From an uncultured Bacteroidales bacterium (GTDB lineage: Bacteria; Bacteroidota; Bacteroidia; Bacteroidales; CAIXZF01): DNA of 64,000 bases. Location: contig CAIXZF010000081.1 of assembly GCA_903923925.1 (NCBI GenBank), positions 1-64,000 of the forward strand, in the 5' to 3' direction. This document shows, piece after piece, positions 40,094-45,787 of the stretch; position 1 is the stretch's first letter; each line of letters opens with the position of its first letter. The notes under the pieces were generated by a model that was given only the letters and a program-made list of their open reading frames with translations, did no database searches and was not told where the DNA came from. Made by a program: the position numbers and the translations under genes.

Positions 40094-41269
40094 ATGATCA
40101 CATTTGAAGAAGCAATAAAAATAGTAAGCAGTATCCCTTTCACCATTTCAACTGAATCCATTGAACTAAGCAGCTCTGTTGGACGTATTCTTGCTGAGGA
40201 TGTATTTTCCGACATGGATATGCCTCCCTTCGATAAATCTGCGATGGACGGCTATGCTTGTCTGCAGAGCGATCTGCCAGGGCCGTTGAAAGTTCTGGAA
40301 ATTATTCCCGCCGGAGTGCAGCCGTCCGAAACAATAACTCCCGGATACTGCTCTAAGATTATGACAGGTGGTATAGTTCCAGCTGGCGCTGATTGTATCC
40401 TGAAAGTTGAAGAAACCGAATCATCCGGCGAGGGTTATATCCGGTTTACATCAAAGTATACTTTTCATAATATTTGCTTTAAAGGCGAAGACATTAAAAC
40501 CGGCGACCGTGTTTTAACAAAGGGCACTGAAATACAACCTCAGCATATTGCTGTTATGGCTGCAGTTGGCTACTGCAATCCATTGGTTAACAAAAAGTTA
40601 CGAGCAGGGATACTGGTTACAGGCGATGAACTGGTTGAGCCTCATAAAAAACCATCTGACACAAAGATCCGCAATAGTAATGGCTGGCAGATTATAGCAC
40701 AATGCCTTCGCGCCGGATTGGAACCTAATTACTATGGTATAATTCCTGACGAGCAGGATAATCTCTTTTTATTTATTCAAAAGTCATTGAATGAAAATAA
40801 TATCCTCTTATTAACAGGTGGCGTTTCAATGGGTGATTTCGATTATGTACCAGCGATGCTGAGGAAAGCTGGTGTTGAAATTATTTTTGAAAAAGTAGCA
40901 GTTCAGCCTGGAAGTCCAACACTTTTTGGTAAAACTGAAAACTGCTTTGTTTTCGGGCTACCTGGTAATCCTGTTTCTACTTTTGTTCAATTTGAGTTGA
41001 TGGTAAGGGCTTTAGCCAATAAACTAAATGGATTGGATTATCAGCCACGAATGCTGCCACTTCAGTTAGCCGCTACCTATAGCCGAAAAAAAGCTTTCAG
41101 GAAATCTTTTTTTCCTGTAAAAGTTGATGCGTCTGGAAAAGTGAAAGCACTTGAATATCACGGTTCAGCTCATATTTTTTCATTTTCTGAAGCCAATGCA
41201 ATTGCCTCCATTGAGGCTGGCTGTTTTGAAATCCCGGAAGGAGATTATATAAATGTTAGATTCATATAA
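40094..41269 (+). CDS. moeA: Molybdopterin molybdenumtransferase
   Basis: This 391-aa enzyme inserts molybdate (or tungstate) into adenylylated molybdopterin. Features are PPFDKSAMDGYA, IMTGGIVPAGAD, VGVTGDEL-like ILVTGDELVEP, LLTGGVSMGDFDYV and FGLPGNPVSTFVQFEL. Length is normal. The ATG at 40094 is chosen because the longer frame starts inside ppk1. It is the first gene of a moeA-moaA-moaC-MOSC/mogA block, and the moaA start overlaps its 3' end by 17 bases. No promoter is evident between ppk1 and moeA, so read-through is likely. Confidence 0.95.
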   Translation: MITFEEAIKIVSSIPFTISTESIELSSSVGRILAEDVFSDMDMPPFDKSAMDGYACLQSDLPGPLKVLEIIPAGVQPSETITPGYCSKIMTGGIVPAGADCILKVEETESSGEGYIRFTSKYTFHNICFKGEDIKTGDRVLTKGTEIQPQHIAVMAAVGYCNPLVNKKLRAGILVTGDELVEPHKKPSDTKIRNSNGWQIIAQCLRAGLEPNYYGIIPDEQDNLFLFIQKSLNENNILLLTGGVSMGDFDYVPAMLRKAGVEIIFEKVAVQPGSPTLFGKTENCFVFGLPGNPVSTFVQFELMVRALANKLNGLDYQPRMLPLQLAATYSRKKAFRKSFFPVKVDASGKVKALEYHGSAHIFSFSEANAIASIEAGCFEIPEGDYINVRFI

Positions 41270-42053
41270 AAGAAATATTAATTACCTCAGAATATCAGTT
41301 ACCGACCGGTGTAACCTCAGATGCACATACTGCATGCCCGAAGATGGTGTAAAAATGCTTCATCATGAAGATATTCTCAGTTATGAGGAAATAACTGAAA
41401 TAGTAAAAGTTGCAGTTGCCAATGGGATTACAAAAGTACGAATAACAGGGGGTGAACCACTAGTGCGTAAAGGAATTACAGATCTTGTTTCTATGATTTC
41501 GGGAATTCCTGGTATAGCAGATCTGGCAATGACAACGAATGCAATTCTGCTTAGCAACTATGCTAATGAATTAAAGAAGGCAGGTTTGAACCGTATAAAT
41601 ATCAGTCTTGACTCAGTTAATCCTGAAAAATTCCGATCCATTACCAGGGGCGGCAATATAAATGATGTTTTCAACGGTATTAAAGCAGCAAAAGAAGCAG
41701 GCCTTCTCCCTATAAAAATCAATTGTGTTATCAGTAAATCAAAAGAGGAAACTGATGCCCTTGAAGTAGCAGACTTTTGCAGAAACAACAAGCTTGAAAT
41801 TCGATTTATCCATCAAATGAGCCTTAAAGACGGACAATTCTCGGTGGTTGAAGGTGGCGATGGCGGACATTGTGCAAGCTGTAACAGGCTTCGGCTAACT
41901 GCTGATGGGAAAATTAAACCATGTCTCTTCAACGATATGGAATTTAATGCCAGGGAACTTGGCGCCGAAAATGCCATTTTAATGGCTATCGGAAAAAAAC
42001 CTGCAAACGGAACTGTTAATTGTTCCGGACATTTTTACAACATAGGAGGATAA
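41253..42053 (+). CDS. moaA: GTP 3',8-cyclase MoaA, compact form
   Basis: This radical SAM enzyme performs the first step of molybdopterin synthesis. It has the N-terminal cluster CNLRCTYC (Cys20, 24, 27), ITGGEPLVRKG and the C-terminal cluster CASCNRLRLTADG...C (Cys207, 210, 224). The end, YNIGG, keeps the family double glycine. At 266 aa it is about 60 residues shorter than E. coli MoaA (329 aa). About 45 of those are missing between RFIHQM and HCASC, where only 17 residues remain. GTP-binding arginines (Arg19, 212, 214 by motif position) are present, so it may be active. It sits directly between moeA and moaC. Confidence 0.88.
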   Translation: MLDSYKRNINYLRISVTDRCNLRCTYCMPEDGVKMLHHEDILSYEEITEIVKVAVANGITKVRITGGEPLVRKGITDLVSMISGIPGIADLAMTTNAILLSNYANELKKAGLNRINISLDSVNPEKFRSITRGGNINDVFNGIKAAKEAGLLPIKINCVISKSKEETDALEVADFCRNNKLEIRFIHQMSLKDGQFSVVEGGDGGHCASCNRLRLTADGKIKPCLFNDMEFNARELGAENAILMAIGKKPANGTVNCSGHFYNIGG

Positions 42054-42054
42054 A

Positions 42055-42519
42055 ATGGCAAATGAATTATCTCATACAAATCAACAAGGCAAAGCGAATA
42101 TGGTGGATGTAAGCGCAAAGCCTCCAATGGTTCGCACAGCAACTGCCACAGGATTTATCAGACTGAAACCTGAGACAATATCGCTGATCAAAGAGAATCA
42201 GCTTAAAAAAGGTGATGTACTTACTGTTGCTGAGATCGCCGGCATTCAGGCTGCAAAAAACACATCAATGCTTATCCCCTTATGTCATCCTCTGCAGTTA
42301 ACTAAAGTTGATGTAAAATGCAGACTAACCTCTGACGGAATAATTGCAGATAGTTTTACAAAATGTATTGGCCAAACTGGTGTGGAGATGGAATCTTTAA
42401 CTGCCGTTTCCGTATCTTTGCTTACTATCTATGACATGTGCAAGGCTGTTGATAAGGAAATGAAAATCGAAAACATTGAATTGCTCATCAAAACAAAGGA
42501 ACTTCCACAAAAAGACTAA
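42055..42519 (+). CDS. moaC: Cyclic pyranopterin monophosphate synthase
   Basis: This 154-aa enzyme acts after MoaA to make cyclic pyranopterin. The active-site motifs LIPLCHPLQL, TGVEMESLTAVS and TIYDMCKAVDK (Asp and Lys) are intact. FIRLKPETISLI lies near the N-terminus. Length is normal. The start codon follows the moaA stop by one base, so translation is probably coupled, which supports moaA being functional. Confidence 0.96.
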   Translation: MANELSHTNQQGKANMVDVSAKPPMVRTATATGFIRLKPETISLIKENQLKKGDVLTVAEIAGIQAAKNTSMLIPLCHPLQLTKVDVKCRLTSDGIIADSFTKCIGQTGVEMESLTAVSVSLLTIYDMCKAVDKEMKIENIELLIKTKELPQKD

Positions 42520-42531
42520 ACTATAACTACA

Positions 42532-43482
42532 ATGGTATATAAAGAAAATAAAAAACTCAGTGTTGTCTCTGTTAATACTTCCACAAAAAAAGGTGTTGTT
42601 AAGTCTCCTGTAGAGTTCATCGACCTATATTCATCCGGGGTTCGGGGAGATGCTCATGCATCAACTGCAGGCATCAGGCAGGTTAGTATGCTGGCTAAAG
42701 AGAGCATCGACAGGTTTTCAAAAGAATCAGCTAAACAATTCAGATACGGCGATTTTGCGGAGAATATAACCACCGAAGGCTTTGAGCTTTATATGACACA
42801 TCCTCTCGATCGTTTTATATGTGGAGATGTGGTTCTGGAAGTCACCCAGATCGGAAAGAAATGTCATGGGGGATTTTGCGCCATTTTTCGTGAAGTCGGT
42901 AATTGTGTGATGCCCAAGGAAGGAATTTTTGCCAGGGTACTGAATCCCGGAATTATTAAACCGGGCGATGCCTTAGTGTATCAGCAAAAGGTTTACTTCA
43001 CTATGGTAATAACCCTTAGCGACCGTGCCAGCCAGGGTATCTATGAAGACAAAAGCGGCCCTGCTATTGAACAGAAACTTGAGCAGTATTTCAAGCAGAA
43101 TTACATGAAATATTGTATCAAATCGAGTATAATTGCCGACAATCCATACCAGCTAAAGGAACTTCTGCTGCTCGCTAAACAGGAGAACGTAGATTTTATA
43201 TTTACCACAGGAGGAACAGGAATAGGTCCCCGCGACATTACGCCCGAAGTAATTAAACCCTTACTCGACAAGGAAATTCCGGGAATAATGGACAATATCC
43301 GGTTTAAATACGGACAAGATAAACCAAATGCTCTGATTAGCAGATCAATTGCCGGAGTTATGGGGAATTCCCTGGTTTTTGCCCTACCGGGCAGTGTTCG
43401 GGCAGTAAATGAATATATTACTGAGATTGAAGGATCATTAAAGCATATGGCTTACATGCTTCATGGTCTGGATACTCATTAA
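42532..43482 (+). CDS. MOSC domain / molybdopterin adenylyltransferase (MogA/MoaB) fusion
   Basis: This 316-aa two-domain protein has an N-terminal MOSC domain (about 5-150), with GVRGDAHAS and the conserved cysteine in GKKCHGGFC. The C-terminal MogA/MoaB domain starts at about residue 156 (VITLSDRASQG) and contains FTTGGTGIGPRDITPE and ALPGSVRAVNEY. MogA adenylylates molybdopterin before MoeA inserts metal. MOSC domains carry sulphur or bind finished cofactor. The fusion could pass cofactor intermediates between steps (inference). It follows moaC by 12 bases and overlaps the convergent iorB by 4 bases. Confidence 0.9.
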   Translation: MVYKENKKLSVVSVNTSTKKGVVKSPVEFIDLYSSGVRGDAHASTAGIRQVSMLAKESIDRFSKESAKQFRYGDFAENITTEGFELYMTHPLDRFICGDVVLEVTQIGKKCHGGFCAIFREVGNCVMPKEGIFARVLNPGIIKPGDALVYQQKVYFTMVITLSDRASQGIYEDKSGPAIEQKLEQYFKQNYMKYCIKSSIIADNPYQLKELLLLAKQENVDFIFTTGGTGIGPRDITPEVIKPLLDKEIPGIMDNIRFKYGQDKPNALISRSIAGVMGNSLVFALPGSVRAVNEYITEIEGSLKHMAYMLHGLDTH

Positions 43483-44069
43483 TGATCTTTTATCTGACTT
43501 AGCGCAAATTCATGCCCTGCATTCAATGCAGCGAGATTCATTGAAATGATATCGTCGCCTTTGCGCTGAAAAATAGCTTTTATTGCTTCTTGAAGTTCTT
43601 CAAAACTGACACCCAAAAACGGAGATGCAGCACCTAAAATGACCACATTGGCACATTTCCCGGACCCCAGATCGCGGGCGATAGCATCCGCATCGAGTGC
43701 AATATGATTATTAATAGATTCAACCTCTGCCATAATTTCATGCATTTCAGGGTAGTTGCCAATATTAATATACGGTTTAGTATTTGTAATCAGCCATCCA
43801 TCAGGTCCTAACATCGGCAGATACCTCAACGATTCCATGGGTTCCACAGAAATAATCATATCTGCTTTCCCAATCGGAATCAGATCAGAATAAATTTCAT
43901 TGTCAGAAATCCTCAGATTCGAGGTTACATCGCCGCCGCGCTGGCTCATTCCATGAGTTTCAGCCTGTTTCAGAAACATTCCAAGGTTAACAGCTGCAGT
44001 TCCAATGATTGCTGCAATCGACAAAATACCTTGTCCCCCCACTCCCGCTAATATAATATCACGCTTCAT
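43479..44069 (-). CDS. iorB: Indolepyruvate:ferredoxin oxidoreductase beta subunit
   Basis: This 196-aa gamma-type subunit of the 2-oxoacid:ferredoxin oxidoreductase family starts IILAGVGGQGILSIAAIIG and contains KQAETHGMSQRGGDVTSN. With IorA it decarboxylates aryl pyruvates from Trp, Phe and Tyr to aryl-acetyl-CoA. It lies 40 bases after iorA in the same operon. Its 3' end overlaps the convergent MOSC-MogA gene by 4 bases. Confidence 0.92.
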   Translation of the reverse strand: MKRDIILAGVGGQGILSIAAIIGTAAVNLGMFLKQAETHGMSQRGGDVTSNLRISDNEIYSDLIPIGKADMIISVEPMESLRYLPMLGPDGWLITNTKPYINIGNYPEMHEIMAEVESINNHIALDADAIARDLGSGKCANVVILGAASPFLGVSFEELQEAIKAIFQRKGDDIISMNLAALNAGHEFALSQIKDH

Positions 44070-44109: not shown

Positions 44110-45726
44110 TTACAATGCCACCGTCTTGATTTTAATTTCATTCTTTTTGCGCTTTGTGGCAGTTTGGATGCACTCTCTGCGAGGTATTATAACACTAACA
44201 CCTTCATATTCAAGTTCTCTTTTCATAATAGCCATGTTTTCCTCATGGAATTTCGGGGAAGGATTAAGGACTATAATATGGCTTCTGTCAACACCAAGAC
44301 CTTCTACAATAGACTCAATACGACCAAAAGCTGCACTTGGCTGGCCACCTGTCATAGCTGTTGTTGAATTATCAAGGATGATAAGCTTCACATTTGATTC
44401 ATCGTTTACAACATCGAGCAGGCCTGTCATTCCTGAATGGGTAAATGTTGAATCCCCGATTACAGCAACAGACGGACTAAAGCCAACATCAGCGGCTCCT
44501 TTGGCCATCGTTATCGATGCGCCCATATCAACACAGGTATTAATGGCATCAAAAGGCTCCAGCGCACCTAAGGTATAACATCCGATATCCGAAAACACTC
44601 TTCCTTTTGTATAGAGTGCAAGTGCTTCATTAAGTGCATTGTATGTATAAATATGAGGACAACCACCACACAAAGAAGGAGGTCTGTTTGCAACAACTTT
44701 TGGAATATCGCTTCCCGGAGTCAATGGGAATCCCAACGCAAGACCAACAATGCCAGGGTTAAGTTCTCCATCTCTCGGAATAGACCCGTCCAAACGGCCA
44801 TGAACAGGCTTTCCAGTATCGAGATAGCCTTTAATCATCTCTTCTATCATTGGATATCCATCTTCGAGCACAAGAATCTCATCACAGCTTTGGTAAAGCT
44901 TTTTAATCATCTCCTTTGGCATTGGATACTGACCAAGTTTAACAACAGGAAAAGGAACAATCCCATTCTGATAATTCTCCAGCAGGTAATTATAGGCAAT
45001 TCCGCAGGCAATTACGCCAAGGCTTTTATCAGCAGCATCAATGTATTGATTAAACCCGGTATTTTCGGATTCAGTAACAAAATGCTCACTGTTTTTTAAT
45101 AGATCTTTGTATTGCCGCCTGGCATTAGCAGGCAAAAGAATAAACTGTCGTGGATTTGCGGGTAGTTTATGCGGATTCTGAATCCTTGAAGTTCTGCGCA
45201 AAACACCAGAGCGTGAATGAGCAAGCCTTGTTGTTAAGCGGATCATTACAGGCACATGATATTTTTCAGAATAGTCGAAAGCATAATGTGTCATATCATA
45301 AGCTTCCTGTTGATTACTTGGCTCGAGAATAGGGATTAGGGCAAATTTTCCATAAAAACGGGAATCCTGCTCATTCTGTGATGAATGCATTGAAGGATCA
45401 TCAGCAGCTACTATTATTAAACCACCATTTGCACCAGTAATAGCAGAGTTCATAAAAGGATCGGCTGCAACATTAAGTCCCACATGTTTCATGGCAGTCA
45501 TAGCACGTTTACCAGTATAAGAAACTCCCAGGGCAGCTTCCATTGCAGTTTTTTCATTGGAAACCCATGAGCTATAGATTCCAAGTTCTGTAGCTTCCTT
45601 TGAATTTTGAATATATTCATTAATTTCTGTAGACGGAGTTCCTGGATAAGCATACATTGCTGACAATCCAGCATCTATAGCTGCCTGCGCAATTGCCTCA
45701 TCTCCAAGTAATAACAGTTTTTGCAT
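44110..45726 (-). CDS. iorA: Indolepyruvate:ferredoxin oxidoreductase alpha subunit, lacking a ferredoxin domain
   Basis: This 538-aa protein combines the pyrimidine and TPP-binding domains: LLLGDEAIAQAAIDAG, YAYPGTPSTEI, CGGCPH and the TPP/Mg loop GDSTFTHSGMTGLLD with LDNSTTAMTGGQP. Canonical archaeal IorA is longer (about 650 aa) because of a C-terminal two-cluster ferredoxin domain. Here the chain stops just after SVIIPRREC with a short lysine-rich tail and no cysteine clusters. Electrons would need another route. The ATG at 45726 is chosen; an upstream start at 45759 would lie inside the promoter. iorB follows. Confidence 0.93.
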   Translation of the reverse strand: MQKLLLLGDEAIAQAAIDAGLSAMYAYPGTPSTEINEYIQNSKEATELGIYSSWVSNEKTAMEAALGVSYTGKRAMTAMKHVGLNVAADPFMNSAITGANGGLIIVAADDPSMHSSQNEQDSRFYGKFALIPILEPSNQQEAYDMTHYAFDYSEKYHVPVMIRLTTRLAHSRSGVLRRTSRIQNPHKLPANPRQFILLPANARRQYKDLLKNSEHFVTESENTGFNQYIDAADKSLGVIACGIAYNYLLENYQNGIVPFPVVKLGQYPMPKEMIKKLYQSCDEILVLEDGYPMIEEMIKGYLDTGKPVHGRLDGSIPRDGELNPGIVGLALGFPLTPGSDIPKVVANRPPSLCGGCPHIYTYNALNEALALYTKGRVFSDIGCYTLGALEPFDAINTCVDMGASITMAKGAADVGFSPSVAVIGDSTFTHSGMTGLLDVVNDESNVKLIILDNSTTAMTGGQPSAAFGRIESIVEGLGVDRSHIIVLNPSPKFHEENMAIMKRELEYEGVSVIIPRRECIQTATKRKKNEIKIKTVAL

Positions 45727-45756
45727 GATGTAATATAGTTGTTGTTTTTGAATTAA

Positions 45757-45787
45757 CAAAGCTACTCCGAAATCCTGTAACTACAAA
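45757..45787 (-). promoter_or_regulatory. Bacteroidota promoter of iorAB
   Basis: On the minus strand, TTTG (45787-45784), a 19-base spacer and TAGCTTTG (45764-45757) match the -33/-7 consensus. The predicted start near 45750 gives a leader of about 24 bases. Confidence 0.7.

Follow-up and report, generated by a model that had tools for sequence, protein, structure and literature searches.

A compact MoaA from a branch of anaerobic Bacteroidales, probably a GTP 3',8-cyclase on a trimmed scaffold

Gene context and sequence features

The window (the whole 64,000-nucleotide stretch of DNA from an uncultured Bacteroidales bacterium that was analyzed) carries on its forward strand a gene unit in which moeA (40094-41269; Pfam MoeA_N, MoCF_biosynth, and MoeA_C) is followed by a compact moaA (41253-42053), predicted to encode a GTP 3',8-cyclase of 266 amino acids, by moaC (42055-42519), encoding cyclic pyranopterin monophosphate synthase (TIGR00581, 195 bits against a cut-off of 141.5), and, as the last gene, by a 316-amino-acid MOSC-MoaB/Mog fusion (42532-43482; Pfam MOSC and MoCF_biosynth). 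The packing is as tight as a previous sequence-only reading of this DNA had described, with 17 bases shared between moeA and the start of moaA, and moaA ending 1 base before moaC. Downstream of compact moaA, in the window and the 43 further compact loci that were compared, moaC is usual, as are MOSC and Mog, either fused or as a pair, the two domains being separate genes in Cloacimonadota and Muiribacteriota loci; moreover, a tungsten AFOR, a ThiS/ThiF pair, and a substrate-binding-protein ABC transporter are found nearby in some compact genomes. Convergent with the moa unit, the reverse strand of the window encodes a POR-family gamma subunit similar to IorB of indolepyruvate ferredoxin oxidoreductase (43479-44069) and an IorA-like POR_N/TPP-domain protein (44110-45759), a pair that might feed aldehyde or aryl-acid metabolism together with AFOR.

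Both the open reading frame and the alignment with Escherichia coli MG1655 bear out the reported length of 266 residues against 329 in E. coli, a difference of 63. The linker between M189 and C207, from RFIHQM to CxxC (41820-41870), has 17 residues in the window MoaA versus 62 in MG1655, so that the 45-residue loss before the C-terminal cluster described by the sequence-only reading stands; that reading had overlooked a second loss, since the tail after C224 (41925-42050), which ends in GG, has 42 residues versus 55 in E. coli (54-64 in the full-length MoaA measured), i.e., 13 fewer. The last 5 residues of the difference fall in the N-terminus and the next loop.

The SAM-binding [4Fe-4S] motif C20-x3-C24-x2-C27 (41310-41333) is invariant in compact and full-length MoaA. 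R13 (41289-41291), the equivalent of the GTP-contacting Arg17 of Staphylococcus aureus, is invariant too. C207-x2-C210-x13-C224 (41871-41924) conforms to the CxxCx13C auxiliary cluster motif described for MoaA (PMC5352715) and includes R212 and R214; by alignment with 1tv7 and 2fb2, R13, R212, and R214 match Arg17, Arg266, and Arg268 of S. aureus, the triple mutated to alanine in PDB 2fb2. An alignment of 24 members of the compact clade shows no change in cluster cysteines, GTP arginines, or GG, and the C-terminal GG is kept in all compact members, in agreement with the earlier claim that these motifs are intact. Furthermore, the protein passes narrowly the curated NCBIfam equivalog for MoaA (TIGR02666, 292.1 bits against a cut-off of 284.05). 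The match to Mob_synth_C (PF06463) scores 43.9 against a cut-off of 37.4 and spans profile positions 53-101 of 128, short of the whole domain; this partial match is the variant feature itself, and the complete domain is not defining for the enzyme. No second MoaA was found in the window's genome, rated 100% complete, where other matches were weak radical SAM ones only.

Distribution, phylogeny, and selection

At the order level, a compact MoaA was recognized by whole-protein match in 21 of 59 genomes, i.e., the window's own and 20 of its 58 relatives, in every case with the frame open and moeA in front; one genome (G043) has the only full-length MoaA found among these relatives, and the remaining ones have no clear MoaA. 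Relatives with the compact form include Marinifilum, Labilibaculum, Prolixibacteraceae, and many Bacteroidales MAGs. In a class sample of 395 genomes the compact form was present in 5, one being the window's own, and a full-length match in 181. The compact MoaA is common to a whole branch of anaerobic Bacteroidales, and no description of a short MoaA in this order was found in the open-access literature. It occurs as well in Muiribacteriota and, rarely, in Cloacimonadota (2/99 genomes), an occurrence outside Bacteroidota that the sequence-only reading did not anticipate, nor did it foresee the association with a pathway lacking MoaE.

The RFIx-to-CxxC spacing measured in about 125 MoaA sequences is bimodal, about 19 in compact and 61-74 in full-length proteins with no intermediates, and this separation into two classes is not chance variation. 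The 44 compact sequences form one group in a tree of 129 sequences (SH-aLRT 98), and a smaller, careful tree built without the deleted columns supports the clade at 100/98. Its nearest full-length neighbors are Bacillota MoaA (86/76, moderate support), whereas full-length Bacteroidia MoaA sit elsewhere on the tree, with G043 among them. These placements of the compact clade and of G043 do not support an origin of the compact form by recent deletion in a full-length MoaA of the type found in other Bacteroidota. The deletions likely had a single origin and then spread between phyla, at least partly horizontally, in one direction or another. One sequence labeled 'Bacteroidales bacterium' (L071, JAIXLE010000153.1) is a full-length MoaA placed inside Planctomycetota, reflecting MAG contamination or transfer.

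Between pairs of close compact genes dN/dS is 0.04-0.10, therefore compact moaA is under purifying selection. Taken with the 20 other genomes of the order and the single clade, this strong constraint upholds the view that the short gene is an in-frame architecture rather than decay; the opposite outcome, in which all relatives would have had full-length MoaA and this copy relaxed selection, was looked for and was not what the relatives showed.

Conservation and structural models of the lost segments

Among 85 full-length sequences, none of the 58 columns present in full-length but not in compact MoaA reaches at least 90% conservation, versus 60 of the 264 retained columns. Some positions have changed all the same, since the compact clade deviates at residues near-invariant in full-length MoaA, namely the E and P of RFIExMP, an M of the tail, the G and I of the pre-cluster strand, and the F that precedes the first cluster cysteine.

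For the window protein, an AlphaFold2 model built without clusters or GTP has a mean pLDDT of 88.5, with a weak GG tail (residues 262-266 below 50). In this model, strand 182-187 (beta6) is followed by a helix-free stretch up to the auxiliary-cluster hairpin, whereas the model of a full-length Clostridiales MoaA (L051; pLDDT 90.5, likewise without clusters or GTP) places helices 192-201 and 205-212 and strand 226-230 in the corresponding segment; from this difference, the compact protein seems to have lost the barrel helix alpha6 together with one strand. A structure search with the compact model gave MoaA 1tv7 as the best PDB match (Z 26.8, rmsd 2.5, 247 residues), the next enzyme below it being BlsE (Z 20.3), while the L051 control model matched MoaA 1tv7/2fb2 best, with Z 35 over about 300 residues. 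That a whole branch shares the compact form suggests that about 60 residues, including one barrel helix, can go without loss of catalytic parts. The sequence-only reading's proposal of a minimal core for GTP cyclisation is a plausible one, considering that no conserved residue was lost and that the MoaA fold is kept in the model.

MoaE absence and the cofactor pathway

Despite the presence of MoaA and MoeA, MoaE (PF02391) was not found in the window's genome, which does carry AFOR and, on another contig, an adjoining ThiS and ThiF pair. MoaE is missing from 22 of 25 compact-MoaA genomes (the window's and 21 others, all of which have MoaA and MoeA and most an AFOR), versus 7 of 182 genomes with full-length MoaA (present in 175/182); the Fisher value of 1e-20 for this association is overstated, because the compact genomes form one clade. 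The Cloacimonadota and Muiribacteriota genomes are likewise without MoaE. No MoaE substitute was found beside compact moaA in the loci examined, where the neighbors were transporter parts, a pyrophosphatase, an oxidoreductase, an acetyltransferase, and MOSC/Mog genes, the last being the only ones to recur across loci. In four compact-MoaA genomes (G028, G047, G048, and G051), matches to Molybdopterin oxidoreductase contain a single in-frame TGA and are possibly selenocysteine formate dehydrogenases.

MoaE absence has been reported in acetogens (PMC5039349), and a role in pterin synthesis has been predicted for the ThiS-like WorX encoded beside tungsten oxidoreductases, with ThiF adjoining in one characterized case (PMC13328260). 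The MoaE gap itself is therefore not new; its tie to a compact MoaA was not found in the literature searched. In this context, we put forward only tentatively, as the less probable side of the matter, that the compact MoaA is the mark of a separate Mo/W-cofactor module spread by horizontal transfer, to which the trimmed protein would be adapted and in which molybdopterin would be made free of MoaE by another thiolation enzyme. The components of such a module are moeA-moaA-moaC-MOSC/Mog, often with a tungsten AFOR and a ThiS/ThiF pair.

Proposed function and alternative explanations

We consider it highly probable that the compact MoaA works as a GTP 3',8-cyclase in streamlined form, on a trimmed scaffold, and is thus a variant of a known enzyme. 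Residue conservation, membership of one clade, purifying selection, the modelled fold, and a conserved gene unit were observed; the chemistry, taken from the characterized MoaA family, and the dispensability of the lost parts we infer. In that family, the 5'-deoxyadenosyl radical is generated at the N-terminal cluster and guanine N1 is bound by the auxiliary one; 3',8-cH2GTP arises after H3' abstraction and is converted by MoaC to cPMP (PMC5352715; PMC9012708). By analogy, the C20/C24/C27 cluster would cleave SAM, GTP would be held by the C207/C210/C224 auxiliary cluster together with R13, R212, and R214, and the 5'-deoxyadenosyl radical would abstract the H3' of GTP to give 3',8-cH2GTP, which MoaC, the product of the next gene, would turn into cPMP. 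In-frame deletions in the clade's ancestor would have removed the last barrel helix alpha6 and the next strand (about 45 residues) as well as about 13 tail residues, none of them catalytic. The cofactor-dependent AFOR is found alongside compact MoaA in 17 of 21 compact genomes.

It is conceivable, if improbable, that a partner is needed, with MoeA, MoaC, or the MOSC-Mog fusion filling the site of alpha6 and the tail to complete the fold, and the lone compact MoaA being poorly active. The constant company of moeA, which stands immediately upstream in the window and in 43/43 other compact loci, including those of Cloacimonadota and Muiribacteriota, would fit such an arrangement, as would the overlap of the two genes in the window, but gene overlaps are frequent in operons generally. 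Moreover, a Bacteroidales-specific motif, VEGGxGG, lies at the end point of the lost segment, yet it is missing from the Cloacimonadota and Muiribacteriota members, and the compact protein alone was modelled confidently over most of its length.

An altered substrate or product, such that the compact clade would no longer be a GTP 3',8-cyclase, seems very unlikely. The replacement of a few near-invariant residues points in that direction, and so does the lack of MoaE in most compact genomes, since their downstream pathway must then differ; on the other hand, there is no variation in the arginines that contact GTP or in the open, three-cysteine auxiliary cluster, the adjoining moaC, whose substrate is the MoaA product, passes its own cut-off, and AFOR, which depends on the cofactor, is present. 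Least credible of all is a decayed gene or an assembly error, in support of which nothing was found besides the short length: the same lengths and spacing recur in independent genomes from several collections, the frame is open with every motif intact, and the compact relatives, the two spacing classes, and the dN/dS among close relatives rule out a pseudogene or an assembly artifact.

Significance and comparison with known systems

MoaA starts molybdenum and tungsten cofactor synthesis and is conserved up to humans (MOCS1A), and the parts of it required for its unusual radical cyclisation are still under study. With the last barrel helix apparently gone and the tail cut back, this natural, clade-wide MoaA sets scaffold apart from catalytic core, and its small size suits it to structural work. 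In addition, since genomes with compact MoaA are mostly without MoaE, they are a good search ground for the missing molybdopterin synthase of anaerobes. Proof of activity without alpha6, or elucidation of the MoaE-less route in organisms with compact MoaA, would add to this significance.

The window protein shares with S. aureus MoaA (1tv7/2fb2) and E. coli MoaA the radical SAM motif, the open CxxCx13C auxiliary cluster, the GTP arginines, the GG end, and a MoaC neighbor, with 34-35% identity to the solved structures over aligned residues; it differs from the characterized enzymes in being without about 45 residues between beta6 and the auxiliary cluster and about 13 of the tail. Among full-length Bacillota MoaA, the Clostridiales protein L051 is 41% identical to it, and the Alkaliphilus genome encoding L060 is also without MoaE, whereas Bacillota proteins are of 320 amino acids and, in the L051 model, keep helices and a strand in the segment lost by the compact form. 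QueE, another radical SAM enzyme, acts on a substrate and by a reaction that are not those of MoaA and is not known to have an auxiliary cluster. Going by the title of Dowling et al. 2014 (ref 49 of PMC10470005), which presents QueE as a 'new minimal core fold' for radical SAM enzymes, there is a precedent for an enzyme of this superfamily with a trimmed barrel.
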